Shown: positions 26,466 through 41,032 of the stretch, one piece after another | How the letters are laid out: each line of letters opens with the position of its first letter | Position numbering within the stretch: the stretch's first letter is position 1 | NCBI GenBank assembly: GCA_900170005.1 | Contig: LT827128.1 | Coordinates: 372,001 to 436,000 of the forward strand | DNA length: 64,000 bases | Source: Gordonibacter massiliensis (ex Traore et al. 2017) | Lineage (GTDB): Bacteria; Actinomycetota; Coriobacteriia; Coriobacteriales; Eggerthellaceae | Direction of reading: 5' to 3' | Notes under the pieces: generated by a model | Told to the model about the DNA's origin: nothing | Databases searched by the model: none | What the model saw: only the letters and a program-made list of their open reading frames with translations | Made by a program: the position numbers and the translations under genes

Positions 26466-27992
26466 TCAGAGAATGGGAGGGCAGCTCTCGGCCGTGTCGT
26501 CGTTGGCTTCTTGCTGCTCCACGATGTCGATAAGCTCCTGCTGCGAATGGATGCCCATCTTCTGGTAGATATGGTACGTGTGCGTTTTGATGGTGCGCTC
26601 GGCAACGTAGAGCTGATCGGCGATATGGCGGGCGTTTCGCCCTTTCACCAGGAAGAACAGTATCTCGCCTTCGCGGGGAGTCAGGTTGTACGTTCGGGTT
26701 GCCTCGGCGCATTTGTGCTTGTAATGCTGCTCGATTACCAGTTCGGGGGTCGGCCCCTGCGCGCTTTCGGGGGGTGTTTGGTCTTTGGCGGGGTCGGGAG
26801 CGTCTGCGGTGATTGGGTATTTGTCGGGATTGACGGTAGCCACGGGGATGTAGATGCACACCAGCACGATCAGGATCATGGCCGCGACGGTGAGCCATCC
26901 TTTTCCGAACTCCGTTGCTACGAAGGCGCCCGCGAACCAACCGAGCGCCTGTCCGAGAACGATGAATATACGGCCTCGAGCGAAGCAGTAGCAGGGCGAT
27001 ATGGAGAGCAGGGTGCCGCGCAAGGAGAGAACCGACGCGTTCGTGTAGTCGAGCAGGTACAGGATGACGAAAAGCGGGAGAGCGGCGACGGTGTTCCACG
27101 GAGCCTGCAGGAACCCCGAGATGATAAGACCGCAAATCAAGAAAGGCAGCAGCACGAGCTGGACCCTTCCCATGGCCAGCAGCCCGGGGGCCTTTTTGTG
27201 CAAGACGAAGAATATGAGCGCCACGCAAACGAACGCCAGGCCCATGATCGTAGGGGGCAGGACGCCTTTGCTGATGCGCGCGACAACAAGCCCGGCTATC
27301 ACGCCGCACATCATGCCGTCCACCGTCATGATGTAGGACCCGTTCGCGCTGTACCTGCTCGTTTCGGCAAGCCAGCGTTCATCGCGCTCGCTTGTAGCCT
27401 CGGTGCCGCTCGGCGGCGAGGCCAAAAGCAACGCGAACGAGCATGCGCAAAGCAGCAAGAACACCGTCAAGCCGACGAAGGACGGCATGGCCAGCACGCC
27501 GGTTACGATGCAACCTGCCAATCCGAACGACCACAGATTGGCCGAGCGGATGCGCTCTTCGCCAAGCGAGCTGCGGAGGTCGGCCCAGGTGCACGAAAAG
27601 TAGGCGCTCGCCGCACCTTGGATCGCCCAGAGCGTGAACTGCAGTGCCAGGGGGAAGGCGAGTTCCAGTGCGGTTTCAAGCAGAACGGCGGCGGGCAACA
27701 GAAGCTGCAGGACCAAGAAGACGGCTTGGGCGCGCCTCGAAGAAACAAACTCGTTTCTGCGCTTGATAAAACGCGTGATGACGAAATAGAATCCCGCCAT
27801 CGAGGCGAACATCGTGCCGTGGGTGAGGCCGTGCATGACGGGAGTGTTGGTTCCGGGCGTCGCGAGCAACGGGCTGAAAGCGGCCAGCAGCACCGAGGCC
27901 GAGAAGAGCGTGAATCCCGCAATGCCGGCCAACTCCCTTTCGCTGTAGCTGCTCTCCTTGCGAGGACTTCCGTTTTTGGTGATTTCGGCCAT
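26466..27992 (-). CDS. LuxR regulator fused to a 12-helix membrane domain
   Basis: 508 residues. About twelve hydrophobic segments (residues 20-425) form an MFS-like membrane domain. After a Pro/Ala/Gln linker the C-terminal 70 residues are a LuxR HTH (LTPREGEILFFLVKGRNARHI, AERTIKTHTYHIYQKMGI). Such membrane-bound one-component regulators are abundant in Eggerthellaceae, where they often sit beside molybdoenzyme genes. It probably senses a ligand at the membrane and controls the locus that follows. ATG at 27992 has GAGGGG; it is divergent from the MFS gene. Confidence 0.88.
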   Translation of the reverse strand: MAEITKNGSPRKESSYSERELAGIAGFTLFSASVLLAAFSPLLATPGTNTPVMHGLTHGTMFASMAGFYFVITRFIKRRNEFVSSRRAQAVFLVLQLLLPAAVLLETALELAFPLALQFTLWAIQGAASAYFSCTWADLRSSLGEERIRSANLWSFGLAGCIVTGVLAMPSFVGLTVFLLLCACSFALLLASPPSGTEATSERDERWLAETSRYSANGSYIMTVDGMMCGVIAGLVVARISKGVLPPTIMGLAFVCVALIFFVLHKKAPGLLAMGRVQLVLLPFLICGLIISGFLQAPWNTVAALPLFVILYLLDYTNASVLSLRGTLLSISPCYCFARGRIFIVLGQALGWFAGAFVATEFGKGWLTVAAMILIVLVCIYIPVATVNPDKYPITADAPDPAKDQTPPESAQGPTPELVIEQHYKHKCAEATRTYNLTPREGEILFFLVKGRNARHIADQLYVAERTIKTHTYHIYQKMGIHSQQELIDIVEQQEANDDTAESCPPIL

Positions 27993-28358
27993 GGCTGCGT
28001 GTCCCCTCCCCCTGATTCCACGTACCCGTCCGAAACGCCTGCATGCAGAACGGCCCGGGAGGCTTCGCTCCCGTTGCGTTGCTGGATGGGTTTCGGATAT
28101 ATCGTATTCTATCGTGCGCGCCATGCTATCGAGAGTACGTTTTTTCGTTTCGGGGCCCGTGGCGTCGATTTAATCCTCTGAGTAGCAAGACAAAAACCGC
28201 ATACGGGGCAATCATGGCTCGACAACAACGGCGGATCCGGCGGCGCGAGGGGGCGCGAGAGCGGAAACGCGCTTTCGGAGAACCGTCAATCCAAGGTCGA
28301 GGTGCTTCATACGGTGCGGTGCGAAAGGGTGCTTTCGCCGTGCGCAGGGGGTGGTGTC
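27993..28358. other. Divergent promoter region
   Basis: 366 nt between the LuxR regulator (minus) and MFS transporter (plus). AT-richer sequence at 28085-28140 (ATATCGTATTCTATCG) is the likely promoter area. No gene or perfect dyad seen. Confidence 0.4.
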
Positions 28359-29606
28359 GTGAAGGAAACGCTTCGCAGATTCTTGTCCTACTTCAGAATA
28401 GAGCATGCGTTGGTCCTCGTGCCGGTGTTCGGTTTCGCGGTGTACGACAGCGTGTTCTCGGCCTTCTCGTCGATTCTGGGCGTGTTGGGCGATGCGTACC
28501 CCGACGTGCCGCGCACGGCCATCCAGATGGTGCTCTCGGTTCCTCCGCTGGTGAGCATACCCGGAACGCTTCTGTCGGGTTTTCTGTCCTCGTACGTTCG
28601 CAAGAAGCGCATCGCCGAGTTCGCGCTGGCCATCATATTCATCGGCGGCATGATCCCCGTCGTGTTCCGCACCCCCAGCATCTACGCACTGTTCGCTTGC
28701 AGTGCCTGCGTGGGGCTGGGCCAGGGATTGCTGCATCCCATGGCGAACGCCTTCATCTGCCAAACATGGGATGACGACGGCGAGCGAAGCCGCGCGCTGG
28801 GGTTCAAGCAGGCGTTCAATTTCATGGGCGAGGCGCTGGTCGCCTTGCTCGTGGGGTTTCTGGCGCTTTCGCATTGGGGCAACGCGTTTTTAGTGTACCT
28901 CGGCGTGATCCCCGTTTTCCTCATTGCCCGGTTCGCGCTTCCCGAAGGCGATCTGGACAAACGGTTGATCGACAGGAAAAGCCGCGCGGCCGGGTTGAAG
29001 GAGCTGTTCAAGCCGAAGGCGGTTTACCTGTTCGCGCTGTTCTTCTTCGCCATGATGTGCTTGTACGGGTTCCACACCAACATCGCCATGCTGGTTCAGG
29101 AACGACGCCTGGGAACGACGGCCGACGTTTCCGTGGTGGCGTCGTGCGTCAGCATCGTGTCCTTCTTGGTGGGCATCGCCTACGGAAAGCTTTCGAAAGC
29201 GTTCGGGGCCGCCACGCTGTGCGTCGGTTTCGGATGCTTGGCTTCGGGCATGCTCGCCGTGTCCCTTTTCGGCTACAGCTTTCCCGTGGTCGTTGCGGGC
29301 GGCGTCCTGTTCGGCTTCGGCTCGGGCGTGCAGCAGATCAGCTCCATCTACTACATCTCGAAGACGGTCGACAAAAGCGTCGTGACCATGGCCATATCGG
29401 TTCTGGTGTCGTTCGTCTCGTTCGGCGCGACCTTGTCGCCCCTCGTCATCAACGGCTTGCAAGGGCTCGTGTTCGGAACGGAGTCGGCCTCGGGGTCGCT
29501 TGCGGTGGCGGGGTGCGGCTTCGCGGTGCTCGTAATGGTGGAAGGCGCCCGCACGCTGTTGAAAAAGAAGCGCGACCGGGGTTCGGAGCTCGTGCGCCGC
29601 AGCTAA
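28359..29606 (+). CDS. MFS transporter
   Basis: 415 residues from a GTG with AGGGGGTG upstream. Twelve hydrophobic segments; the loop between helices 2 and 3 has FLSSYVRKKRIAEF, a variant of the MFS GXXXD(R/K)XGRR motif. Substrate unknown. Divergent from the LuxR sensor and upstream of the molybdoenzyme cluster, so uptake or export of the same small aromatic or carboxylic substrate is plausible (inference). Confidence 0.85.
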   Translation: MKETLRRFLSYFRIEHALVLVPVFGFAVYDSVFSAFSSILGVLGDAYPDVPRTAIQMVLSVPPLVSIPGTLLSGFLSSYVRKKRIAEFALAIIFIGGMIPVVFRTPSIYALFACSACVGLGQGLLHPMANAFICQTWDDDGERSRALGFKQAFNFMGEALVALLVGFLALSHWGNAFLVYLGVIPVFLIARFALPEGDLDKRLIDRKSRAAGLKELFKPKAVYLFALFFFAMMCLYGFHTNIAMLVQERRLGTTADVSVVASCVSIVSFLVGIAYGKLSKAFGAATLCVGFGCLASGMLAVSLFGYSFPVVVAGGVLFGFGSGVQQISSIYYISKTVDKSVVTMAISVLVSFVSFGATLSPLVINGLQGLVFGTESASGSLAVAGCGFAVLVMVEGARTLLKKKRDRGSELVRRS

Positions 29607-29836: not shown

Positions 29837-30073
29837 ATGGCAGATCAAGAGTTGCTCGCTCGGTACGCGCCGACGATCGATTCGCCGGAGACGAAGGAGG
29901 CCTATCTGCTCGACGGCGCGCTTTTCATTCGCCATGAGTTCCGAGATCCAGCCGAGCTTCAGACGCGCATGACCTATCACAAGGTGGGAGAGGACAACGT
30001 CGTCTCGAACGACAATCTCGTCATGTTGGGGGTATGGGCGCGCGCGCAGAAGCAGGGCGAGCAGGTCAAGTAA
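29837..30073 (+). CDS. Small conserved protein upstream of molybdoenzyme 1 (78 aa)
   Basis: 78 residues, acidic, soluble, no Cys. LLARYAPTIDSPETKEAYLLDGALFIRHEF is a coherent amphipathic pattern. GAGGAAGGAAGG precedes the ATG. Thirty nt before the molybdoenzyme start and surely co-transcribed. Could be an accessory or structural subunit; no family recognised. The 29607-29836 spacer holds an ATACCCAGAGTAT dyad at 29608-29620 and otherwise nothing clear. Confidence 0.65.
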   Translation: MADQELLARYAPTIDSPETKEAYLLDGALFIRHEFRDPAELQTRMTYHKVGEDNVVSNDNLVMLGVWARAQKQGEQVK

Positions 30074-30103
30074 GACGAGAGAGAACGCTGAAAGGAGATT
30101 TGC

Positions 30104-32416
30104 ATGAGAGAATGCTTCGATCCCCAGGTCTACAAGAAAGACTGGCAGTACCAAGAAGGGGATCTGACCGTCACGCGCACGTGCCAATGGTCGGCCCCAG
30201 GCTGCCATCAGGGCTGCAGCATCCTGTTCTACACTGACAAGGACGGCAAGCTGGTCAAGGTCGAAGGCGATCCGAACTCCCCGGTGACGGACGGCCGCCT
30301 GTGCATGCGCTGCCTTGCCATGGTGGAGGCCGTGTACCATCCCGACCGCATCGTCCATCCGATGAAGCGCGCCCGCGAGGACCGCGGCAAAGACGCGTGG
30401 GAGCAGATCACCATGGACGAGGCCTACGAGCTGTGCATCGAGATGGTGAAGGACACCACCGAGAAGTACGGGGCGAAGTCCATCTGCACCGGTGCCGGAA
30501 CGGGCCGCAACGCCACGTGGCAGTCCAACGTGCTGGGGCAGGGCGCCTTCGGCACGCCGAACGACAACTGCGGCCTTCTGGCGGGCAACTGCTGCTACAC
30601 GCCGCGCATGCAGGGCATGAACGCGGTTTTGGGAGACACGTTCATCGCCGACTGCGGGCAGTTGAACGAGGCGCGTTTCGACCATCCCGAGTACCGCCGC
30701 CCCGACCTGTTCATAATCTGGGGAAACAACCCGCTGCGCGCCAACGCCGACGGCTTCTTCGGCCACTGGATAATCGACTGTATGCGCCGCGGCTCCGAGC
30801 TGTTCGTCGTCGACCCGCAGGTTACGTGGCTGTCTGCCCACGCGAGGCTGTACGTGCAGGTGCGTCCGGGCACCGATGCGGCGCTCGCGCTGGCCATCGG
30901 CCACGTGATGATCGAGGAAGAGCTCTACGACAAGGAGTTCGTCGATTGCTGGTGCTACGGCTTCGACGAGTACCGCGAGCGCGTCAAGGATTGGACGCCC
31001 GAGCGCGCCGCCGAGATATGCTGGTGCCCGGCTGAGAAGATATACGAGGCCGCGCGCCTCATCGGCACCGCCGGCGTCACCACGCTCCAGTGGGGCGTGG
31101 CGTTCGACCAGACCAAGTGGGCGAACGGCACGGCGCACGCGGCCGTGGCGGTGCAGGCGCTCACCGGCAACATCGACAACCCGGGCGGCTTCGTGGGCAT
31201 CAACTTCGGCTACGTGCAGTCTGACATCCGCGAGAACATCGCCAAGAGCCTGCCCAGCGTCCGCGAAGGCCGCTTGGGCGACGACGGCAACTGGGGCCTC
31301 ATGAACGCCGTGGGCAAGGGCGGGCACGCCATCCCCGAGGCCATCTTGGACGCGGCCGAGACGGGCAAGCCGTATCCGGTGAAGATGCTGTTCATGTGCT
31401 CCACCACGGCGTTCACCAACATGGCGGGCCAGGCGCGGCGCGTGTACGACGTGTACCGGGACATGGACCACGTGGTGGTGTGCGACCTGTTCATGACGCC
31501 CACCGCCATGGCCGTGGGCGACCTGTTCATACCCATGGCCATGGGGTGCGAGCGCAATGGCGTGCGCGGCTGGTACACGCCCCTGCGCTCCATCGTGAAG
31601 GTCACGCAGACCGGCGACGCCGTGGGCGACGAGCAGATGATGTTGGAGCTGGGCAAGAAGATGAACCCCGATCTGTTCTACTGGGACGACGTGCCCGAGA
31701 TGTTGGAGTTCTGCACGAACAACATGGCCACCGTCCCCATCCACATCACGTTCAGCGAGCTGCGCGAGAAGGTGATCGTGTACCCCGAGTTCGAGTACTA
31801 CAAGTACAAGACGGGCAAGCTGCGCTTCGACGGCAACCCGGGCTTCAACACGCTGTCCGGGCGCGTGGAGCTGTTCTGCAACATGTACAACAACGTGGGG
31901 ATGGACCCGCTGCCGTACTTCAACGAACCGCCGGAGAGCCCCGTCAACACGCCCGAGCTCTTCGCCGAGTACCCGCTCGTGCTCACGACGGGCCGCCGCT
32001 GCTGGGAGTACTTCCACTCCGAGCATCGCCAGCTGCGCTCCATGCGCGAGTTCCACAAGTGGCCGATGTTCGCCATCAACCCCGAAGACGCCGCTGCCGC
32101 GGGCATCAAGGAGGGCGACTGGGCCGTCATCGAGAACGCCCACGGCAGGGCCATGGAGGTGGCGCACGTCACCGACACCATGATGAAGGGCGTCGTCAGC
32201 GCCGAGCACGGCTGGTGGTTCCCCGAACGGGACAAGGAAGAGCCAACGCTTTTCGGCCTGTGGGAGTCCAACATCAACTGCCTCACGGTGCAAGGGGACT
32301 TCGGGCCCAGCGGATACGGCTCGTCCTACAAGACCCAGCTCTGCAAGGTTTACCCGGCACCGGAAGGCTACGGCGCCGAATTCGAGAAGATGTACGCCGA
32401 GCATCACAACCTTTAG
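30104..32416 (+). CDS. Molybdopterin oxidoreductase catalytic subunit 1 (DMSO reductase superfamily)
   Basis: 770 residues, no signal peptide, so cytoplasmic. N-terminal Fe-S region has Cys27, Cys34, Cys38, Cys67 and Cys70 (APGCHQGC and GRLCMRC). The Mo-bisMGD domains follow: AYHP-like dock, FIIWGNNPLRANADG, FVVDPQVTW, TGNIDNPGGF, and the C-terminal cap with LVLTTGRR, EGDWAVIENAHGR and AEHGWWFPE. Cys164 (GNCCYTPRM) aligns with Cys163 of the second enzyme and is the likely Mo ligand. Architecture recalls soluble two-subunit enzymes such as pyrogallol transhydroxylase and catechol dehydroxylases. Substrate unknown. Confidence 0.9.
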   Translation: MRECFDPQVYKKDWQYQEGDLTVTRTCQWSAPGCHQGCSILFYTDKDGKLVKVEGDPNSPVTDGRLCMRCLAMVEAVYHPDRIVHPMKRAREDRGKDAWEQITMDEAYELCIEMVKDTTEKYGAKSICTGAGTGRNATWQSNVLGQGAFGTPNDNCGLLAGNCCYTPRMQGMNAVLGDTFIADCGQLNEARFDHPEYRRPDLFIIWGNNPLRANADGFFGHWIIDCMRRGSELFVVDPQVTWLSAHARLYVQVRPGTDAALALAIGHVMIEEELYDKEFVDCWCYGFDEYRERVKDWTPERAAEICWCPAEKIYEAARLIGTAGVTTLQWGVAFDQTKWANGTAHAAVAVQALTGNIDNPGGFVGINFGYVQSDIRENIAKSLPSVREGRLGDDGNWGLMNAVGKGGHAIPEAILDAAETGKPYPVKMLFMCSTTAFTNMAGQARRVYDVYRDMDHVVVCDLFMTPTAMAVGDLFIPMAMGCERNGVRGWYTPLRSIVKVTQTGDAVGDEQMMLELGKKMNPDLFYWDDVPEMLEFCTNNMATVPIHITFSELREKVIVYPEFEYYKYKTGKLRFDGNPGFNTLSGRVELFCNMYNNVGMDPLPYFNEPPESPVNTPELFAEYPLVLTTGRRCWEYFHSEHRQLRSMREFHKWPMFAINPEDAAAAGIKEGDWAVIENAHGRAMEVAHVTDTMMKGVVSAEHGWWFPERDKEEPTLFGLWESNINCLTVQGDFGPSGYGSSYKTQLCKVYPAPEGYGAEFEKMYAEHHNL

Positions 32417-32448
32417 ACGTCGTCGCACAGGGAAAGGAGATCGGGCTC

Positions 32449-32781
32449 ATGACACAACAGGGTCTTTTGATCGATTACGAGTTCTGCACGGGCTGCCACG
32501 CCTGCGAGATGGCGTGCAAGGTGGAGAAGGGCCTCGGGGAAGGCGAGTGGGGCATCAAGCTCGCCGAGATCGGCCCGTGGAAATTGGACGGCGACGTATG
32601 GGAGTGGGACTACGTGCCCATGCCCACGCAGCGTTGCGACCTGTGCGCCGAGCGCACGCGCGCGGGCAAGGTTCCCGCCTGCGTGCATCATTGCCAGTCG
32701 CTGGCCATGGAGTTCGGACCCGTCGACGAGCTTGCCAGGAAAGTGACCAAGCCGCGCATGGTCCTGTTCTCGGTCCAATAA
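32449..32781 (+). CDS. Small 2x[4Fe-4S] ferredoxin subunit 1
   Basis: 110 residues. Cys13, 16, 19 and 23 (CTGCHACEMAC) form one set; Cys63, 66, 78 and 82 (CDLC and CVHHC) form the second, so two [4Fe-4S] clusters, half the number in DmsB/PsrB-type subunits. AAAGGAG precedes the ATG, 32 nt after the catalytic subunit. It should pass electrons to molybdoenzyme 1 in the cytoplasm; no membrane anchor gene follows. Confidence 0.9.
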   Translation: MTQQGLLIDYEFCTGCHACEMACKVEKGLGEGEWGIKLAEIGPWKLDGDVWEWDYVPMPTQRCDLCAERTRAGKVPACVHHCQSLAMEFGPVDELARKVTKPRMVLFSVQ

Positions 32782-32789
32782 GGTCATCG

Positions 32790-32824
32790 CCTCCGCGGCG
32801 TCTCGAGGAGGGGCGCCGCGGAGG
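32790..32824 (+). terminator. Hairpin between ferredoxin 1 and symporter genes
   Basis: CCTCCGCGGCG (32790-32800) pairs with CGCCGCGGAGG (32814-32824), 13-nt loop, no T-run. Likely a partial terminator or mRNA-processing hairpin that lowers expression of the downstream genes. Confidence 0.5.
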
Positions 32825-32851
32825 TCAAACTCTTATCAAAGGGGGTTTCGC

Positions 32852-34357
32852 ATGAGCGAGAAAGCATCACAGCTAGGGGAGAGGGCGGTTTCGGCCATCC
32901 AGAACAACGTCACGCAGGCGCTGGGCCTTATCTACGGCCTCGGCATGCTCACGTGGACGGCGTTCAACCAGATGAACAGCAATTATTGGTCGTACTTCCT
33001 CACCGAGATCTGCGGTTTGGAACCCACGGTCATGGGCACGGTCAAGGCGGTCACGGGCGTGGGCGAGTGGTTCTTCGTCATCATCGCCGCCATCATCATC
33101 GAGCGGGTGTGGCTCAAGCACGGCCAGTACCGCAGCTGGCTTTTGGTGGCGCCTCCCGCGACGTTCGTCTGCCTGCTCATGACGTTCGTCGATCCGAGCT
33201 TCCTCGACATGGGCGCCAAAACCGCTTGGATGATCTTCTTCCAGATCGTGGGCGGCTTCTTCTCGAGCTTCTTCATGATAGCCGCCACGTCCATCGTGCC
33301 GGTCATCAGCCGGACCGAGGCCGACCGCACGCTGCTCTCCCAACGCAAAGCGCAGGGCAACATGTTGGTGAAGGTGCTGTTCGCCGCCATATCCCTGCCA
33401 GCCATCCTGGCCATCAACGGGCTGGTGTACCGCGTGCCCGCCGGCGAGAACGCGCAGAACGCCGGTCCTGCCGGCTTCACGGTGCTGGCGCTCGTTTTCG
33501 GCATCATCATGATCGTCATGTTCGTGGTCATGTACAAGCGCATCGACGGCATGGATCCCACGCAGAAGCTGTGCGAGGAGCGCGCCGCGGCCAAGAAGCG
33601 CGGCGAGAAGGTTCCGCCCATCGCCGCCGGAGAGAAGGTCGGCATCGGCGAGATGCTCAAGTACTGGCTCACGAACCTGCCGGCCATCATCGGGCTGTTC
33701 GCCGAGATCATCCGCTTCGTGGCGCAGATGACCATCCAGAGCATGGCCATGTACGTGTTCACCTACGCCTTCGGCGACGTGGCCATGGCCGCCGTCATGC
33801 TCACCGCCTGCAACATCACGGGTCTGGCGGCAACGTTCGTGTCCGAACCCGTCGCTCGCAAGATCGGCATCCGCGCCACCTATCTGGCCGGCATCGGCAT
33901 CTCGTTCGCGTTCTCCGCCGTGTGCATCTTCGTGGGCGCATCGAGCATGATGGCCTTCATCGTGTGCATCTGCGGCATCTACTTCGGCATGAACTTCATG
34001 AACGGAACCATGATGGGCATGCAGTCCAACGCCATCGCCTACGGCGAGTGGCGCGACGGCAAGACCGCCAAGGCGTTCATCATGTCCACGTTCCAATGGT
34101 GCCCGAAGATCGCCAACGCCGTGGCCGGCCTGCTCACCGGGTTCGGCCTGGCCGCCATCGGCTTCGTGTCGGGCATGGAGGCCTCGCCGGAGTTGGCGCA
34201 GGGCATGGTGAACATCATCTGCATCATCCCGGCCGTTTGCTTCGGCATCGCGTTCGCGGCCTTCTTCTTCGGCTACCGCCTGACGCCTAAGAAGATGGAG
34301 CAGATCGCCGTCGACCTCGCAGAGCGCGAGACCCAGAAAAGCGCGGCCGCCGAGTAG
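32852..34357 (+). CDS. GPH/MelB-like cation symporter (MFS_2)
   Basis: 501 residues with about 12 membrane helices. The layout (LGMLTWTAFNQMNSNYWSYFLTEICGL at the first helix, a central charged loop EERAAAKKRGEKVPP, and AIAYGEWRDGKTAKAF in the second half) matches the glycoside-pentoside-hexuronide:cation symporter family, whose E-x-R-x-G-x(R/K) motif is seen as YGEWRDGKTA. Probably imports the molybdoenzyme substrate or exports its product (inference). RBS AAAGGGGG. Confidence 0.85.
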   Translation: MSEKASQLGERAVSAIQNNVTQALGLIYGLGMLTWTAFNQMNSNYWSYFLTEICGLEPTVMGTVKAVTGVGEWFFVIIAAIIIERVWLKHGQYRSWLLVAPPATFVCLLMTFVDPSFLDMGAKTAWMIFFQIVGGFFSSFFMIAATSIVPVISRTEADRTLLSQRKAQGNMLVKVLFAAISLPAILAINGLVYRVPAGENAQNAGPAGFTVLALVFGIIMIVMFVVMYKRIDGMDPTQKLCEERAAAKKRGEKVPPIAAGEKVGIGEMLKYWLTNLPAIIGLFAEIIRFVAQMTIQSMAMYVFTYAFGDVAMAAVMLTACNITGLAATFVSEPVARKIGIRATYLAGIGISFAFSAVCIFVGASSMMAFIVCICGIYFGMNFMNGTMMGMQSNAIAYGEWRDGKTAKAFIMSTFQWCPKIANAVAGLLTGFGLAAIGFVSGMEASPELAQGMVNIICIIPAVCFGIAFAAFFFGYRLTPKKMEQIAVDLAERETQKSAAAE

Positions 34358-34435
34358 CCGGTCGATGCGCTTGTTCGAGTAAAGCGGGCTGCGCGGCTCG
34401 ATTCGCGCGCCCATACTACGGAAAAGAGGATTCCC

Positions 34436-34672
34436 ATGTGCTTCAGACCAGCTGCCATCAGCATGGACAAGACGTGCCCCGCCTGCGGCGCCGTCAACGA
34501 TTTCGCCAACGAGAACTGCGACCAGTGCGGCGCCTCCCTGCCGAGCGCTCCGCCCATCGCGGGCATGCCGGGAGCTCCGGGCGCCCCCGGAGCCCCCGGA
34601 GCCCCCGCTGCGCCCCAAGCTCCTGCGGCGCCGGGCGCGGCGCCTGCGGCGCCCAAGGCGCCCGGCGCGTAG
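34436..34672 (+). CDS. Zinc-ribbon protein with Ala/Pro/Gly tail
   Basis: 78 residues. Cys14, 17, 28 and 31 (CPACG-x10-CDQCG) form a zinc ribbon, followed by about 40 residues of collagen-like GAP/APA repeats, probably disordered. RBS AAGAGGA. Function unknown; position between transporter and trigger-factor paralogue in a co-directional run suggests a role in the same system. A 41-bp tandem duplication spans its 3' end. Confidence 0.65.
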   Translation: MCFRPAAISMDKTCPACGAVNDFANENCDQCGASLPSAPPIAGMPGAPGAPGAPGAPAAPQAPAAPGAAPAAPKAPGA

Positions 34673-34719
34673 CGGGGCCGGCGCCTGCGGCGCCCAAGGC
34701 GCCCGGCGCGTAGCGGGGC
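34637..34719. repeat. 41-bp tandem duplication across a stop codon
   Basis: Two near-identical 41-nt units (34637-34677 and 34678-34718) containing GGCGCCTGCGGCGCCCAAGG. The first copy includes the TAG that ends the zinc-ribbon gene; the second is untranslated. Confidence 0.85.
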
Positions 34720-34796
34720 AAGGGGGGGCGCAGGGCTGCCGCGAGGCGGCTCTCCGCCCCGGCGTGAGACGACATCCGACGACGGTGGGGGCGAGC

Positions 34797-36095
34797 ATGG
34801 ATTTCAAGAAACTCGAGAGGACGGACGTTCCGGCCACGGGGGCGATAGGGGTTTCGGTCGTGGTGTGCGGTGCGACGGTGCGCCGGGAACTGGACGTGTT
34901 CTACGAGGTCGTGAACGCGTACTACGGCCTTCCGGAAGACGCGCCGTGGGAGGATGCGGACGCAGCGGCGGAGAAGGCCACGTCGGCGGACGCCTATCGA
35001 GAGATGCGGCGCGACTTCGTCGTCAACCGCGTGACCAACGAGGCGCTGGCTGCGCTCGGCATCGTGCCGGCGCTCACGCCGGACGTGCGCGTGACGGCGT
35101 ATCCGGATTCCGACGAGGATTTCGCCTTCGACCTGGCCGTCGTGGAACGGCCGCGGCTCTCCTTGTCATGCTTCGATCCCGTGGAGATAGAGGTCGAGGA
35201 CGTCGAGGTGACCGACGAGCTGGTGGACGCGCGGATTGCGGAGCTTATGGAGTCGCGCGCGGAGTACGCGCCGGCCGACCCCCATCCGGTCGTGTTCGGC
35301 GACTGCGTGAGCATCGACGTGGCCACGTTTTGCGAAGGCAAGCCGGTGCCGCGCCTCACCGGCAAGAAGATGGTGCTCGAGGTGGCGGACGGCTCCATGC
35401 CCGACGCGTTCGTTGGGCAGCTTATGGGCATGTCGGTTGGCCAGACGAAAACGTTCGAGTACGCGGTGGAACGCCCCCGGGCCCTATCCGACGACGACGT
35501 CGACCGTTACCTGGCCACGGTGACGGTGCTGGGGCAGCTGCGCAAGGACGTGCCCGAGCTCACCGACGCGTGGGTCGAGGCGAATATCTCGAAGGCGTCG
35601 TCGGTGGCGGAGTTTCGCGCCGGCGTCGCGCAGGGTCTCGAAGCCGAGGTGGAGCACCTCAATCGCGACACGCGTGCCCGCTTGGCCAACATCGAACTGG
35701 AGAAGCGCCTGCAAGGCGCCATTCCCGATGCGTTCTACCGGGCCTCGCGGGAGGGCATGAGGCGCGCCCTCGAGCGCGAACTGGCCGAAAAGGGCCAGAC
35801 CATCGACGATTACTACGAGCAAGAGCGGACGAACGAAGAAGAGCTGAGCGTGCAGATGCTCATCAAATCCGGCGAGAACCTGCGTCAGGGATTCGCCCTC
35901 GAAGCCCTGTTCGACGGTCGCGGCATGCGGCTTTCCGAAAAGGATCTCGCCCACGCCTGCGAGGAGGCGTTCGGGCCGGGCTCGTACGATCCGGTGCTGC
36001 TCGAGCGCACGGGAAAGCGTCGCGTGGTGGAAAGCGCCGCGAAGCGCATGGTCGCCCTCGCGTGGCTCGCCGACACCGCTGTGGCGAAAGGCTGA
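34797..36095 (+). CDS. Trigger factor-like chaperone paralogue
   Basis: 432 residues with the trigger-factor order: ribosome-binding-like N-domain (DFKKLERTDVPATGAIGVSVVV), FKBP-like middle domain (FGDCVSIDVATFCEGKPVP, MPDAFVGQLMGMSVGQTKTFEYAV), and a helical chaperone arm (ANISKASSVAEFRAGVAQGLEAEVEHLNRDTRARL). The ribosome-docking GFRxGKxP motif of true trigger factor is not evident, so it may work off the ribosome. It is encoded between two molybdoenzyme modules, suggesting help in folding or cofactor loading of these large enzymes (inference). Confidence 0.75.
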   Translation: MDFKKLERTDVPATGAIGVSVVVCGATVRRELDVFYEVVNAYYGLPEDAPWEDADAAAEKATSADAYREMRRDFVVNRVTNEALAALGIVPALTPDVRVTAYPDSDEDFAFDLAVVERPRLSLSCFDPVEIEVEDVEVTDELVDARIAELMESRAEYAPADPHPVVFGDCVSIDVATFCEGKPVPRLTGKKMVLEVADGSMPDAFVGQLMGMSVGQTKTFEYAVERPRALSDDDVDRYLATVTVLGQLRKDVPELTDAWVEANISKASSVAEFRAGVAQGLEAEVEHLNRDTRARLANIELEKRLQGAIPDAFYRASREGMRRALERELAEKGQTIDDYYEQERTNEEELSVQMLIKSGENLRQGFALEALFDGRGMRLSEKDLAHACEEAFGPGSYDPVLLERTGKRRVVESAAKRMVALAWLADTAVAKG

Positions 36096-36101
36096 GCGGC
36101 G

Positions 36102-36329
36102 ATGGAGCGCTGCTACGTGTGCAACCATTGCGGAAAATGCGACGACCTCGCTTTTCGCATCGTTATGCCGATGCCGGTCTGCCTCGATTGCGGACACGAG
36201 GTGCAGCCGGGCGAGAGCCCCGCCCGCTGCGCCGCCTGCGGTGGCGCACGCATCGCGACGATGGATTTCATCGAAGACCGCTCCGCGATAGCGCGGAGTG
36301 AAAGAAGAGAGGAGCAGGAACATGAGTGA
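36102..36329 (+). CDS. Double zinc-ribbon small protein
   Basis: 75 residues with eight Cys: 4, 7, 10, 13, 27, 30, 43 and 46 in paired CxxC form, enough for two zinc sites. C-terminus is Glu/Arg-rich. Starts 6 nt after the trigger-factor paralogue and ends 8 nt inside molybdoenzyme 2, so it is translationally coupled to both. Role unknown; redox or metal-handling helper is possible. Confidence 0.75.
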   Translation: MERCYVCNHCGKCDDLAFRIVMPMPVCLDCGHEVQPGESPARCAACGGARIATMDFIEDRSAIARSERREEQEHE

Positions 36330-38628
36330 ATTGACCCGCGTGTCGGAGACGCCCCGCGTCACGGAGCTCGAGGACGGCACGAAGGTGTACCGTACGGCGC
36401 AATGGTCGCCTCCGGGATGCCATGGCGTCGGTTGCGGATTGAGGGCCTTCGTCAAAGACGGCAAGCTGGTGAAGGTGGAAGGGGACCCCGACCAGCCCAT
36501 CACGAACGGCCGCCTGTGCGTTCGGTGCCTCACGCTTCCCGAGTACCTCTACCACGAGGATCGCCTCCTCCATCCCATGAAGCGCGACCGACGGTTCCGC
36601 GGACAGCCCGACAAATGGGAGCGGATCACCTGGGACGAGGCGTACGACATCATCGTGGAGAAGTACCGCGAGCTCACGGAAAAGTACGGCCCCGACACGG
36701 TGTCGGTGTGGACGGGCACCGGTCGCGAGGCGAGCGCGTACCAGTTCCAGACCTGCAACCAGGTGTTCCACAGCCGCACGGCCATCCACGCCAACGGCGG
36801 TTGGTCATGCGTCATACCGCGCCAAACCGCGATGGACTGGCTGCTGGGCTGCGCGTATGTGGAGTACGACGGCGCGTTCGGCTTCAAGGACCGCTACGAC
36901 GATCCGCGCTACGAGCTGCCCAAGTACATGCTCATCTGGGGTCGCGACACCTTGTGGTCGAACCCCGACGGGCTGTTCGGACACAGCACGGTCGACATGA
37001 TGAAGCGCGGCATGAAGATCATCGTCGTCGACCCGCGGGCCAACTGGCTGGCCCGCCATGCCGCGTACCATTTCCAGATCCGACCCGGCACCGACGCCGC
37101 GCTGGCCATGGCCCTGAACGCGGTCATCATCCAGGAGGATCTGTACGATCACGACTTCGTGGAGAAGTGGACGTACGGCTTCGACGAGTACGCCGAGCGC
37201 TGCTGCACCATGACGCCCGAGATGGCCGCCGAGATCTGCGAGGTGCCGGTGGAGGACATCTACGCCGCCGCCCGCTGCCTGGCGCAGAAGCCCTGCACGG
37301 CCTCCGTGGGCCTGAAGACCGACCAGAACCCCAACACCCTGCAGATTTGCCATGCCATCTGGGGAATATTCGCCATCTGCGGAAACCTGGACAATCCCGG
37401 AGGCGTCAAGCTGGGCCAGACCATGCTCAACGGCGGCTCGACCGGGCGCAAGGGCGTGGGCATGCTGGTGGAGGAAGAGGACAAGAACCCCATTCCCATC
37501 GCCGGCCACGACCAATACCCGGCCATGGACTTCATCATCAACACCACGCAGCCCGACTGCACGTTGGACACCCTGCGCACGAACATACCGTATCCCATCG
37601 AGTTCCTGTTCATCCAAAGCTCCAACTTCATCTCGTCGTGCATCACGCAGCAGCCGATGCAGTGGATGGAGGCGTGCCGTCACAAGGAGTTCGTGATGGC
37701 CACCGACATCTTCATGAACCCGACCATCCAGGCCCTGGCCGACGTGGTGCTGCCGGTGTCGACTTCGCTCGAACACGAGGGTATCGTCACGTTCCACGGC
37801 TGCAACCAGCCCGGGCAGTTCCATGCCCTCACGAAGGTGCTGGAACCTCTCGGCGAGTGCAAGTCGGACTTGGAGATCATGCTCGACCTCGACCACCGCA
37901 TCAACCCCGATCGCACCGAGGATCCGGAGAAATGGTCGAGCCCGCATGCGTACCTGGACAACAAGATACAGAACATCCCCTACACGGCCGACCCCGAGAC
38001 GGGGGAGGATATGACGTACGAGACGCTGCGCGAATGGGTGTACGGACGCTACGAGATTCCCTATTACCAATACGAGAAAGGGCTGCTGCGCGCCGACAGC
38101 AAGCCGGGCTTCAAGTCGCCCACGGGGCGCGTGGAGCTGTGGAGCACGGTGAAGCAGCACCTGGGGGAGGACCCCTTGCCCTATTACGAGGAGCCTCGCT
38201 TCTCCAAGCGGTCGCGCCCCGAATGGACCGAAGAGTACCCGCTCGACTTCGTCACCGGCGCGCGCCGTCCCACGTCGTTCCATACCGAGCACCGCATGAT
38301 CGATTCGCTGCGCGAGATACGGTCGGCTGCCACGGTCGAGCTGCATCCCGCCACCGCCGAAAAGCACGGCATCGGCCAAGGCGATTGGGTCACCATCGAG
38401 AACCCTTGGGGGAAGTGCCAGATGATCGCGGATATCACGCCCATCGTGAAGGAGGGGGTCATCGGGTGCGACCACGGTTGGTGGTATCCCGAAGACAAGG
38501 ACGCGGAGCTGTTCAGCGTGCGCAAGTCGTCCATCAACTCGCTCATGCCATGGAAAGAGATCGGCAAGCTGGGCCTGGGCTCGCACTACGGCGCGCTGCC
38601 CTGCAAGATCTACCGGACCGAAAACTAG
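36322..38628 (+). CDS. Molybdopterin oxidoreductase catalytic subunit 2 (DMSO reductase superfamily)
   Basis: 768 residues, no signal peptide. Fe-S region Cys33, 38, 66 and 69 (PPGCHGVGC, GRLCVRC); the Cys27 of subunit 1 is Ala here. MGD-binding segments include YMLIWGRDTLWSNPDG, IIVVDPRANW, CGNLDNPGG, DFVTGARRPTSFHTEHR, and HGIGQGDWVTIENPWGK. Cys163 (GWSCVIPRQ) is the likely Mo ligand. It is a diverged homologue of the enzyme at 30104, not a recent duplicate. Uses its own ferredoxin partner 19 nt downstream. Substrate unknown; a reductase/dehydroxylase is the best guess. Confidence 0.9.
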   Translation: MSELTRVSETPRVTELEDGTKVYRTAQWSPPGCHGVGCGLRAFVKDGKLVKVEGDPDQPITNGRLCVRCLTLPEYLYHEDRLLHPMKRDRRFRGQPDKWERITWDEAYDIIVEKYRELTEKYGPDTVSVWTGTGREASAYQFQTCNQVFHSRTAIHANGGWSCVIPRQTAMDWLLGCAYVEYDGAFGFKDRYDDPRYELPKYMLIWGRDTLWSNPDGLFGHSTVDMMKRGMKIIVVDPRANWLARHAAYHFQIRPGTDAALAMALNAVIIQEDLYDHDFVEKWTYGFDEYAERCCTMTPEMAAEICEVPVEDIYAAARCLAQKPCTASVGLKTDQNPNTLQICHAIWGIFAICGNLDNPGGVKLGQTMLNGGSTGRKGVGMLVEEEDKNPIPIAGHDQYPAMDFIINTTQPDCTLDTLRTNIPYPIEFLFIQSSNFISSCITQQPMQWMEACRHKEFVMATDIFMNPTIQALADVVLPVSTSLEHEGIVTFHGCNQPGQFHALTKVLEPLGECKSDLEIMLDLDHRINPDRTEDPEKWSSPHAYLDNKIQNIPYTADPETGEDMTYETLREWVYGRYEIPYYQYEKGLLRADSKPGFKSPTGRVELWSTVKQHLGEDPLPYYEEPRFSKRSRPEWTEEYPLDFVTGARRPTSFHTEHRMIDSLREIRSAATVELHPATAEKHGIGQGDWVTIENPWGKCQMIADITPIVKEGVIGCDHGWWYPEDKDAELFSVRKSSINSLMPWKEIGKLGLGSHYGALPCKIYRTEN

Positions 38629-38647
38629 CCTGAAAGGGGGTATCGAG

Positions 38648-38983
38648 ATGGCCACCTATGGATTGATGATCGACAACGAGTACTGCACCGGCTGCCACAC
38701 GTGCGAGATCGCCTGCCGCAACGAGCTGGGCCTGCCCATGGGGCAGTGGGGCATCAAGCTGCTGGAGATGGGGCCGTGGCGCAAGCCGGACGGAACGTGG
38801 GAGGGCAAGTACGTTCCCGTGCCCACGACCTCGTGCAACCTATGCGAGGAACGCGTTGCCCAAGGCGGCGTGCCGTCGTGCGCGCTGCACTGCCTGGCCG
38901 ACGCCATCGAGTACGGCACGCTCGAGGAGCTGGCGAGGAAGATGGCCGACCGAGGGGAGCAATGCTCGATCTTTCTGCCTTAA
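38648..38983 (+). CDS. Small 2x[4Fe-4S] ferredoxin subunit 2
   Basis: 111 residues, same plan as subunit 1: Cys13, 16, 19, 23 (CTGCHTCEIAC) and Cys63, 66, 78, 82 (CNLC, CALHC). GAAAGGGGG precedes the ATG. Last gene of the second enzyme module; electron transfer partner of molybdoenzyme 2. Confidence 0.9.
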   Translation: MATYGLMIDNEYCTGCHTCEIACRNELGLPMGQWGIKLLEMGPWRKPDGTWEGKYVPVPTTSCNLCEERVAQGGVPSCALHCLADAIEYGTLEELARKMADRGEQCSIFLP

Positions 38984-39070
38984 GCGCCGCGCAGCTTTTC
39001 GGCGGCGGGCGGAAGAGGGGTTGGGCCCTTTTCGTCCGTCGCCCGCGCGGCTGAGATCGTCAAGGAGCAA

Positions 39071-39103
39071 GGCCCCGGTTTCCGACGGCGCGGAACCGGG
39101 GCC
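39071..39103 (+). terminator. Hairpin after the molybdoenzyme module
   Basis: GGCCCCGGTT (39071-39080) pairs with AACCGGGGCC (39094-39103), stem extendable through one bulge, 87 nt after the ferredoxin stop. No T-run; partial terminator likely, leaving some readthrough into the MFS gene. Confidence 0.55.
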
Positions 39104-39126
39104 GTTGCGTCAAGGAGGGCTTGAAG

Positions 39127-40311
39127 ATGGAGAGCGCAAGGCTGTGGAACCCCCGATTCGCCCAGCTGTTCTGCATCGAGACGATGTTGCAGTTCGGGTT
39201 GTACCTCACGCGTCCGCTTATCGCAGGGTACGCGGTTTCGCTGGGCGCCTCTTTGGCGGTGGCGGGGTTCCTGGCGGGGCTTTTGGCCACGGCGGCTTTG
39301 ATTATGCGGCCGATGAGCGGCATCGTGACGGATCGGCTGGGAAAGAAAGGCCTGCTGGTCGTGTCCTGCGCGCTGTTCGCGGTCTCGGCGCTGGGCTGCG
39401 CCTTGTTTCGATCCGTTCCGCTCGCGGCGGCGTTCCTTGCGCTCCAAGGGTTCGCGTTCGCGTTCAAGTCGACGGTCGTCGTGTCGTTGGCTTCGCTGGT
39501 GGTTCCCGCGTCGAAGCTGGGAAGCGGCGTGGGGTGGCTCGGGGTCGCCTACACGATAGCGTGCGCCTTGGGTCCCGCGCTCGGATCGTTCGTCGGCGGC
39601 GCGGTCGGCTATGCGGGCGCCTTCGCCGTTTCGGCGACGCTGCTCTTCGCGGGGCTCGTTTTGGCGGTGCTGTTCAAGGCGCCCCGCGAGGCTTGCGCGC
39701 ATGCCGTCCCGACCGCGCCTTCGCGGCCCGGCTGCGGCTTTGCCGCCTGGTTCCACGGCCCCACGCTTCTGCTTTCCGCAGTGGCCGGCCTGTTGATGGT
39801 GGCCCAAGGCGTGACCTCCTCGTTCGTCTTGCTGGTGGGGGATATGAGGGGCATCGAGGGAGCCTCCCTGTACTTCCTCGTCTATTCCTTGGCCACGCTG
39901 GCGGCAAGGCCGTTGGCGGGAAGGGCCAGCGACTCGTTCGGCGTGCGCGCGGTCGCCCTGCCCATGATGCTCCTCGCTGCTTTCGGCATGACGGCGGCGG
40001 CGTTCTTGGAATCGTTCGCGGGCGTCGTCGTGGCAGGGGCTTGCATGGGCGTGGGGCAGGGATCCGCCTACTGCGCCCTGCAGGCCGAGTCGGTGCGCGG
40101 GGTGCCCCAGGACCGGGTGGGGCGTGCGGCGAACACGTTTTACCTGGGGCCCGACCTTTGCATGGGCTTGGGGCCGGTTGTGGGCGGTTTCGTCTTGCAG
40201 GCGGCGGGGGCTGCGGCCTTGTTCCTGTTCAATGCGGCGGCTGTGCTTTTGGGGCTGATCCTGCTCGCGGTTTTCGGGTCGCGCCGCCGCGGCTCCTCCG
40301 ACCGATCTTAA
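39127..40311 (+). CDS. MFS transporter
   Basis: 394 residues, twelve hydrophobic segments. The loop after helix 2 reads MRPMSGIVTDRLGKKG, the MFS G-x3-D-x-x-G-(R/K) motif; a second copy (LAARPLAGRASDSFGVR) marks the second half. AAGGAGG precedes the ATG. Follows the second molybdoenzyme module on the same strand, so probably a transporter for that pathway. Sequence suggests general drug/metabolite MFS; substrate unknown. Confidence 0.85.
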   Translation: MESARLWNPRFAQLFCIETMLQFGLYLTRPLIAGYAVSLGASLAVAGFLAGLLATAALIMRPMSGIVTDRLGKKGLLVVSCALFAVSALGCALFRSVPLAAAFLALQGFAFAFKSTVVVSLASLVVPASKLGSGVGWLGVAYTIACALGPALGSFVGGAVGYAGAFAVSATLLFAGLVLAVLFKAPREACAHAVPTAPSRPGCGFAAWFHGPTLLLSAVAGLLMVAQGVTSSFVLLVGDMRGIEGASLYFLVYSLATLAARPLAGRASDSFGVRAVALPMMLLAAFGMTAAAFLESFAGVVVAGACMGVGQGSAYCALQAESVRGVPQDRVGRAANTFYLGPDLCMGLGPVVGGFVLQAAGAAALFLFNAAAVLLGLILLAVFGSRRRGSSDRS

Positions 40312-40450: not shown

Positions 40451-41032
40451 ATGGAGCGGCTTGCAAACGACGGGGGAATCGAGGGCGTGGAACCGGCGGT
40501 GTTCCGGATGGAGCGCTCGGGCGGTTTTCTGGGAAGCCGGACGCTCACGGGATGCCTGCTGGCCGTCTACCTGTCGGTCCTGGCGTGGATCATCCTGCTG
40601 AAGATGCAGTTCTCGCTGGACGCGGCGGGCACGATGCGCAGCGTGAACCTGGTGCCGCTGGCGGGAGCCACGGTCATCAACGGCGCGCTGGACTATCGCG
40701 AGGCCGTGCAGAACGTGCTGGCGTTCGTGCCGTTCGGCTTGTATGCGGGCATGCTCTTCGGGCGACGGTCGCTGTGGTGGGGCCTCGCGCCCATCGCGCT
40801 CGTCAGCTTGGCCTTCGAGGCGCTGCAGTTCGCGTTCGCCATGGGCGCGTCGGACGTCACCGACCTTCTGGCCAACACGGCGGGCGGAGCGCTGGGCCTG
40901 TGCCTGTACGCGCTCGTGCGGCGCATCGCGCGGTCGGACGAGCGCGCGATGCGCGCGGGCAACGCCGTCGCCTTGGCGGGAACCGCGCTCGTGCTGGCCT
41001 TCCTGGGCGTGCTGATCGTGGCGAACCTGTAA
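40451..41032 (+). CDS. VanZ-like membrane protein
   Basis: 193 residues. After a charged N-terminus, five hydrophobic segments. SVNLVPL, NVLAFVPFGLYAGMLF, and SLAFEALQFAFAMGASDVTDLLANTAGGALG are the VanZ family core (the conserved N.L-FxPxG and ExxQ-x-.-.-.-R.xDxxDxxxNxxGxxxG pattern). Role outside teicoplanin resistance is mostly unknown. RBS AAGGAG. An inverted-repeat element separates it from convergent pyrE. Confidence 0.85.
   Translation: MERLANDGGIEGVEPAVFRMERSGGFLGSRTLTGCLLAVYLSVLAWIILLKMQFSLDAAGTMRSVNLVPLAGATVINGALDYREAVQNVLAFVPFGLYAGMLFGRRSLWWGLAPIALVSLAFEALQFAFAMGASDVTDLLANTAGGALGLCLYALVRRIARSDERAMRAGNAVALAGTALVLAFLGVLIVANL

Follow-up and report, generated by a model that had tools for sequence, protein, structure and literature searches.

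The window analysed here is a 64,000-nucleotide stretch of Gordonibacter massiliensis DNA, bases 372001–436000 of a 3.95-Mb single-contig genome (G000, the Gordonibacter genome of the window), and the system in question is a run of genes built around two molybdoenzymes, together with a divergent regulator (Table 1). The run encodes two Mo-bis(pyranopterin guanine dinucleotide) (Mo-bisPGD) catalytic subunits, E1 and E2, which are 38% identical, two small ferredoxins (Fd1 and Fd2), two major facilitator superfamily (MFS) transporters, a GPH-type symporter, a trigger-factor (TF) paralogue, two zinc-ribbon proteins (Z1 and Z2) and a 78-aa protein, with short gaps between the genes. By sequence, E1 and E2 are an uncharacterised pair within a known class, the cytosolic Gordonibacter-type molybdoenzymes, and their operon neighbours look like a maturation apparatus. 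All genes of the run named by the first-pass annotation are open, co-directional and placed where it had put them, with families assigned by Pfam and NCBIfam.

Table 1. Genes of the twin molybdoenzyme locus, in window coordinates (aa, amino acids; HTH, helix-turn-helix; TAT, twin-arginine translocation; AF2, AlphaFold2)
Feature	Position	Strand	Evidence
552-aa LuxR-type regulator with a C-terminal HTH and at least 10 hydrophobic segments, divergent from the operon	26466..28124	-	sub-threshold HTH matches
MFS transporter 1 (MFS1)	28419..29606, start uncertain (28302 or 28419)	+	weak MFS-subfamily matches
Conserved 78-aa protein, family without assignment	29837..30073	+	no Pfam/NCBIfam match
E1, Mo-bisPGD catalytic subunit, 770 aa, no TAT signal, candidate Cys ligand in NCCYTPR	30104..32416	+	PF00384/PF01568/PF04879
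Fd1, 110-aa small ferredoxin with two 4Fe-4S-type motifs (eight Cys)	32449..32781	+	Fer4_11/Fer4_2/Fer4
GPH-type cation symporter, 501 aa	32852..34357	+	PF13347, TIGR00792
Z1, MCFRP zinc-ribbon protein, Pro/Ala/Gly-rich tail, 78 aa	34436..34672	+	family alignment
TF, trigger-factor paralogue, 432 aa, without the GFRxGK ribosome-docking signature	34797..36095	+	Trigger_N/Trigger_C, TIGR00115, alignment, AF2/Foldseek
Z2, 75-aa zinc-ribbon protein with CYxCxHCGKC and eight Cys that are invariant across the family alignment	36102..36329	+	family alignment
E2, the other Mo-bisPGD catalytic subunit, 768 aa, no TAT signal, candidate Cys ligand in WSCVIPR	36322..38628	+	PF00384/PF01568/PF04879
Fd2, small ferredoxin, 111 aa, eight Cys	38648..38983	+	sub-threshold Fer4 matches, partial DmsB-type match
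MFS transporter 2 (MFS2), 396 aa	39121..40311	+	PF07690, 126 bits

Both enzymes carry a C..PR motif, whose Cys is presumably the Mo ligand; that of E2 aligns with LCTAPR of thiosulfate reductase. The closest solved structure by sequence is acetylene hydratase 2e7z for E1 (8e-72) as well as for E2 (3.8e-63), matched in two separate stretches; we know of no 4Fe-4S partner or comparable operon for that enzyme. An AF2 model of E1 built on a six-row alignment reached a pLDDT of 38 and was discarded. As the first-pass annotation had stated, neither N-terminus contains a TAT motif, and no membrane-anchor family was found among the ten proteins of the run that were scanned. E1 and E2 are thus TAT-less catalytic subunits of the dimethyl sulfoxide reductase superfamily, with a small 4Fe-4S protein and MFS genes adjoining and no membrane anchor, and by these sequence features they fit a class already published from Gordonibacter, whose members lack TAT and come with MFS genes and small 4Fe-4S partners (PMC7028382, PMC12771579).

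A phylogeny of 102 catalytic subunits placed E1 and E2 in separate subclades (19 and 25 rows) of one 55-row clade with a Shimodaira–Hasegawa-like approximate likelihood ratio test (SH-aLRT) support of 100, whose eam and Eldh members are named by neighbourhood or position. One of these members adjoins the sole PF04909 gene that stands beside molybdoenzyme (Mo) genes in G000, and a second enzyme of that region lies about 15 kb away; on this adjacency, rather than on characterised protein sequences, the two are probably the Eadh enzymes of the eam cluster. The adjacent pair 3606380/3609255, sisters in the tree, presumably represents (+)-Eldh1/(+)-Eldh2, again by position and not by characterised sequences. 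The probable eam cluster of G000 spans 717566–737362 (L031, L032), with the PF04909 gene at 733129, Mo genes near it and no TF, Z1 or Z2 gene within 4 kb of these Mo genes. The first-pass annotation had assigned the locus to the superfamily that gut Eggerthellaceae use for catechol dehydroxylation and other reductions; the kinship with other cytosolic Gordonibacter-type enzymes stands, and E1 and E2 may be dehydroxylases.

The gene order is kept across genera, which excludes chance as its origin. A family search covered 119 genomes, four of them of the same genus as the window, and found orthologues of the window TF with at least 49% identity in eight of the 118 others. The complete order (LuxR divergent from MFS1, then the 78-aa gene, E1, Fd1, GPH, Z1, TF, Z2, E2, Fd2 and MFS2) is present in a genome of the same genus (L115) and in Adlercreutzia sp. 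ZJ473 (L118). A. faecimuris (L120) has the cluster plus a PGA_cap gene, an MmgE/PrpD gene and two small genes, and Raoultibacter timonensis (L121) has MmgE/PrpD added and both MFS genes moved between TF and Z2. The partial contigs L116 and L117 follow the same order, with MmgE/PrpD in L116; the partial contig L122 carries MmgE/PrpD and has no GPH match, and the 4.1-kb contig L119 contains TF, MmgE/PrpD and PGA_cap only. The first-pass annotation had asked for conservation of order in related genomes as a sign of a coherent system, and such conservation is what we find, complete in Adlercreutzia and with changes in Raoultibacter.

Sequence identity is 84–96% for E1 and 81–97% for E2 (four full-length orthologues each), 78–89% for Fd1 in seven loci and 86–95% for GPH in six. 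The four relatives L115, L118, L120 and L121 share 78–91% identity in Fd2, 55–77% in MFS2 and 95/87/81/76%, respectively, in the 78-aa protein, which is a conserved protein rather than the leader it had been called. Relatives of E2 at 81–96% come from Adlercreutzia, Raoultibacter and Eggerthellaceae metagenome-assembled genomes, including one named Gordonibacter. The genes listed for the unit by the first-pass annotation hold; its start at 29837 does not, since MFS1 and the divergent LuxR gene accompany the unit in relatives. MFS1 keeps its position in L115 and L118, lies elsewhere within the cluster in L121 and is a fragment at the edge of L120, and the best pieces of the LuxR protein show 81/47/40/46% identity in L115/L118/L120/L121. 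Among the gene starts, that of E2 is most likely 36322, not 36298, and that of TF most likely the ATG at 34797.

LuxR/MalT/NarL-type HTH models match residues about 465–538 of the regulator with scores under their cut-offs, and the protein has 10 hydrophobic 19-mers. The symporter scores 183 bits with TIGR00792, below the cut-off of 231, and far exceeds the cut-off of PF13347; 4Fe-4S models pass theirs for Fd1 only and remain sub-threshold for Fd2. A promoter scan (3 sites against 2.4 expected) and a terminator scan (19 against 11.4, those on the + strand between 29837 and 40311 all intragenic) were uninformative. A VanZ-like protein encoded just downstream (window 40451–41032; NF033125, 101.6 bits against a cut-off of 250) was excluded from the unit.

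A second, paralogous twin cluster (L123, L127, L129) encodes a sister of E1 (SH-aLRT 100, quick tree), a ferredoxin, a sister of the window TF (support 97, in a quick tree with long branches), a GPH symporter and two 75–79-aa relatives of the 78-aa protein, which measure 75 and 79 aa in L123 and L129. L123 and L129 additionally carry a member of E2's 12-row subclade with its ferredoxin; L127, cut at its end, carries Z1, MFS and two MmgE/PrpD genes. The 75–79-aa family (window 29837–30073; L123 7277–7504 and 7618–7857) was found with twin clusters only, and the searched Mo neighbourhoods of G000 hold one copy. MmgE/PrpD, missing from the window, is located at L120 8231–9619, L121 10711–12099 and L127 9357–10712 and 12150–13517; its recurrence is a possible clue to a carboxylated substrate. 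The PGA_cap (CapA-like) gene occupies L120 7033–8115, in the A. faecimuris twin cluster, and L119 2908–4014 (G100).

These accompanying genes also bear on the reaction catalysed. Instead of being catechol dehydroxylases, E1 and E2 might be hydratases, transhydroxylases or other bis-molybdopterin guanine dinucleotide (bis-MGD) enzymes with a carboxylic acid or a cyclic polyol as substrate and with MmgE/PrpD in the same pathway, a possibility that we take seriously while doubting it. It would agree with acetylene hydratase as the best solved relative of both enzymes, with the MmgE/PrpD genes that five of the eight orthologous loci carry and the two that A. faecimuris has in its second twin cluster, and with a symporter of the GPH family, which mostly moves glycosides and uronides. 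Against it stands the position of E1 and E2 inside the cytosolic clade, which also holds the neighbours of the PF04909 (Eah-type) gene, probably dehydroxylases of the Eadh type.

The TF encoded between the two enzymes scores 136 bits with TIGR00115 (cut-off 180), its AF2 model has a mean pLDDT of 89.3, and the best Foldseek match of that model is the trigger factor 1w26 (E=1.6e-19). A template-modelling score of 0.46 and a root-mean-square deviation of 12.5 suggest differently placed domains, with the N-domain, the FKBP-like domain and the fold of the C-terminal arms predicted to be present. The GFRxGK pattern occurs in two of the 67 TF proteins examined, both housekeeping (the G000 copy and a G111 copy 60% identical to it), and is missing in the other 65. 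G000 encodes seven Trigger_C proteins: the housekeeping TF adjoins clpP/clpX and carries GFRAGKAP, and a second, at 210456–211769 (L018), is a core paralogue of the family that adjoins ribosomal-protein or ABC-transporter genes in eight relatives' loci inspected. A claim that all six non-housekeeping TFs of G000 are Mo-linked was dropped on account of this core copy. The remaining five each have a Mo gene on their own strand at a distance of 0.2–2.8 kb, measured between open frames; one of the five keeps the C-terminal part only, and another, from its first likely ATG, is without the N-domain.

The link between accessory TFs and molybdoenzymes extends to other genomes. A same-strand Mo gene lies within 3 kb of 8/9 window-type and 17/24 other accessory TFs (25 of 33 loci pooled), 5/32 core TFs and 0/2 housekeeping TFs, in a sample that was not random: 8 window-type loci, 32 family-search rows at least 8 kb from the contig start, 20 hand-picked loci (from congeners or from genomes giving several TF matches) and 7 of G000, with L119, whose 4.1-kb contig has no room for a Mo gene, counted as not linked. 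Eggerthellaceae have a core second TF paralogue without GFRxGK, which in several genomes stands inside or beside the ribosomal-protein operon; its loci are G000 210456–211769 and 31 further ones among L124–L153 and L236–L252, e.g., L149 8041–9339 and L142 8001–9314.

The zinc-ribbon proteins of the window, which gave just sub-threshold generic zinc-ribbon matches in Pfam and NCBIfam scans, belong to two small families. Z1 members (17 rows aligned) begin with MC[FY]RP and have two CxxC motifs and a Pro/Ala/Gly-rich tail; Z2 members (10 rows aligned) have eight invariant Cys, in CxxCxxCxxC followed by two CxxC. In G000, each of the 18 full-length Z1 copies has a Mo gene no more than 4 kb away, and 17 are on the strand of the nearest one; circular shifts give an expectation of 3.4, and 0 of 2000 shifts reach the observed value. 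This count omits 14 of 32 matches (E above 1e-12, mostly partial), among them a 19th, weaker Z1 at 209564, which begins MCFRP and is 5.9 kb from a Mo gene. For Z2 the figures are 15 of 16 within 4 kb, 13 on the same strand, 3.1 expected and 1/2000 shifts, with 21 of 37 matches dropped (20 weaker than 2e-7, one antisense overlap). Around the 81 Mo genes with 3-kb flanks in L155–L232, Z1 is found within 4 kb of 30, Z2 of 41 and TF of 5; these loci overlap one another and L115–L122 in part, so that the counts repeat some genes. A sample of 296 Coriobacteriia genomes from 125 genera yielded Z1 at E 1e-10 in 29 genomes and 21 genera, with 25 of the 29 genomes belonging to this family; its copy numbers are lower bounds, as up to 19 candidates were scored per genome. 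Three or more TF matches were found in 20/25 family genomes with Z1 and in 3/20 without it (45 singly listed genomes, relatedness uncorrected). When 17 Z1 and 10 Z2 members were compared with family models at E 0.01, none matched FdhE (PF04216).

Across G000, these genes and TorD chaperones exclude one another. We counted as helpers any Z1, Z2, TF or FKBP gene within 4 kb of a Mo gene, and TorD (PF02613) within 5 kb, for 82 Mo genes; three of the 85 PF00384 matches, second pieces of listed genes, were dropped. TorD accompanies 20 of the 82, none of which has a helper, and 36 of the other 62 do (Fisher test, 1e-6), in statistics drawn from one genome that count clustered, related genes as independent. 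In a scan up to the PF00384 domain, TAT-like N-termini were seen in 19/20 TorD-linked, 0/36 helper-linked and 9/26 remaining genes; conversely, the 54 TAT-less Mo genes include 36 with a helper and one with TorD, and the 28 with TAT none with a helper and 19 with TorD. TorD accompanies none of the 34 genes in the cytosolic clade, and a helper accompanies 26 of them; the 48 genes outside the clade include the 20 with TorD. Neither E1 nor E2 has any of the 21 TorD genes found in G000 within 5 kb.

Since E1 and E2 have neither a TAT signal nor a TorD chaperone, the dedicated TF, Z1 and Z2 may aid their folding and cofactor insertion. We propose, at an even balance of confidence and doubt, that the locus is a substrate-induced operon for import and reduction whose two cytosolic enzymes have their own TF and zinc-ribbon maturation. 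The divergent transmembrane LuxR regulator would induce the operon in response to its substrate, and the GPH and MFS proteins would move substrate and product, with the direction of transport presumed. A small organic compound would be imported and then reduced in the cytosol by two Gordonibacter-type bis-MGD reductases, E1 with Fd1 and E2 with Fd2, most likely in successive or site-selective steps; dehydroxylation is the most likely reaction type. A dedicated, ribosome-uncoupled TF would assist folding and cofactor insertion in E1 and E2, as PceT does for the dehalogenase PceA, and Z1 and Z2 may be further maturation factors. By this analogy with PceT, the best reading of TF, Z1 and Z2 is a TorD-independent cytosolic maturation kit. 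The observations behind it are gene content, synteny, clade membership, the lack of TAT and TorD, docking-motif loss and the genome-wide co-location of TF, Z1 and Z2 with TAT-less Mo genes.

Several observations weigh against this proposal. Eight of the 34 cytosolic-clade enzymes, including both probable eam-region ones, have no Z1, Z2, TF or FKBP gene within 4 kb, so helpers are not strictly required in cis, and 10 of the 48 Mo genes outside the clade do have a helper nearby. Of the 24 accessory TFs that are not of the window type, seven are without a Mo gene on their strand within 3 kb, and the TF of L243 was counted as linked although its Mo match is weak (44 bits). The window TF shares 49–73% identity with its orthologues and evolves much faster than the enzymes (81–97%), which is unusual for a tightly fitted partner. 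FKBP_C proteins lie within 4 kb of a Mo gene in four of seven cases, which is not significant (139/2000 shifts at 4 kb); FKBP/SlyD-type proteins were therefore not counted as evidence for a fourth helper. (+)-Eldh1/2 were active when expressed in E. lenta (PMC11887054), and the genome G070, which we take to be that of E. lenta DSM 2243, gave no match to Z1 at 1e-10; of its two TF matches, one is the core paralogue. As a separate observation, small FKBP/SlyD-type prolyl isomerase genes adjoin cytosolic Mo genes in G000 at 218858–219067 (L018), with FKBP_C matches at 265061, 306108 and 1110875.

The helpers could also have no part in maturation: Z1 and Z2 might be regulators, metal buffers or RNA/DNA-binding proteins, and the TFs general stress chaperones, brought together with Mo genes by hypervariable metabolic islands. 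Zinc ribbons are mostly nucleic-acid or scaffold modules, and both families match just generic zinc-ribbon and similar small-domain models. One TF paralogue without the docking motif is, moreover, part of the family's core gene set; it adjoins ribosomal-protein or ABC-transporter genes in the loci inspected and is Mo-linked in only 5/32, and many G000 Mo genes are clustered, e.g., at 175–340 kb. Island effects, however, would not yield the exclusion between TorD and helpers (0/20 versus 36/62) nor track the TAT signal, and Z1 copies are dispersed over the chromosome, yet all 18 full-length ones lie near a Mo gene. We consider this explanation rather unlikely.

That the locus is one of the characterised twin clusters, eam with Eadh1/Eadh2 or (+)-Eldh1/2, is highly improbable despite the similar architecture (two cytosolic Mo enzymes, 4Fe-4S proteins, MFS, LuxR): eam has an Eah decarboxylase and the only PF04909 gene beside Mo genes in G000 lies outside the locus at 733 kb, while G. 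pamelaeae 7-10-1-b (DSM 19378) and Gordonibacter sp. 28C, for which eam or (+)-Eldh genes or activity are published, have no window-type TF and best E2 relatives of 53% and 44%, respectively, in the 80 loci kept, from which records very near the window's genome may be omitted. Identity with eam was rejected; PF04909 matches of G000 occur only at 2435977, 733129 and 674794, none in the window.

The eam cluster for ellagic acid in Gordonibacter and Ellagibacter likewise encodes two Mo enzymes that lack TAT and stay in the cytosol, along with their 4Fe-4S partners, MFS and LuxR, and is one induced cluster in which each enzyme takes one step (PMC12771579). The window locus differs, as judged from the text of that paper, in lacking the Eah decarboxylase, in the subclades of its enzymes and in having GPH, TF, Z1, Z2 and the 78-aa protein. 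G. pamelaeae also has an adjacent Gordonibacter-type pair, (+)-Eldh1/(+)-Eldh2, acting on two sites of one molecule (PMC11887054); the presumed counterparts in G000 are sisters in the tree, whereas E1 and E2 belong to different subclades. Dadh, Hcdh and Cadh of E. lenta, of the catechol dehydroxylase superfamily, need dedicated accessory proteins for activity, those of the TAT-exported Dadh including a TorD-like chaperone (PMC11887054). These enzymes are TAT-exported and membrane-anchored (PMC7028382), with the TorD-like DadhF, in contrast to the cytosolic, TorD-less window locus with its TF and zinc ribbons. The suggestion of a possibly undescribed system holds in part: the locus is not the eam cluster, and neither of the two named Gordonibacter genomes shows a close relative of it in the loci kept, but the enzyme class and twin pairs are already known, from Eadh1/Eadh2 (PMC12771579) and (+)-Eldh1/(+)-Eldh2 (PMC11887054).

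The closest parallel to the proposed helpers is PceT/RdhT, a TF homologue in the operon of a cofactor-bearing anaerobic reductase and dedicated to its maturation (PMC8905343, PMC3306737). PceT is a dedicated chaperone found at about 1:1 with soluble PceA (PMC8905343). The window TF is encoded beside the genes of E1 and E2; PceT binds the TAT signal of PceA, whereas the proposed clients of the window TF would be TAT-less bis-MGD enzymes. The 2009 paper on PceT names it a trigger factor protein in its title. The wording "trigger factor" is missing from the main texts of PMC12771579, PMC7028382, PMC11887054, PMC9734109 and PMC11585353, and the accessible literature yielded no description of a TF in connection with Gordonibacter, molybdoenzymes or Coriobacteria, or of Gordonibacter zinc ribbons, figures and supplements being outside the scope of both statements. 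Published diagrams of these clusters may include genes for TFs or zinc ribbons.

We advance a broader idea more tentatively, with somewhat less than even confidence: Coriobacteriia may possess a TorD-independent maturation route for cytosolic bis-MGD enzymes, via ribosome-uncoupled TFs and two families of zinc-ribbon microproteins that we found described nowhere (MC[FY]RP with the Pro/Ala/Gly tail, and CYxCxHCG[KR]C); this route would have let dozens of TAT-less molybdoenzymes multiply in these genomes. The conserved twin operon, with its own transporters and regulator, is a concrete starting point for a substrate search. If the helpers are needed for activity, they would constitute a set of molybdoenzyme chaperones distinct from the TorD family, and they could flag, in unannotated genomes, which Mo enzymes are cytosolic.

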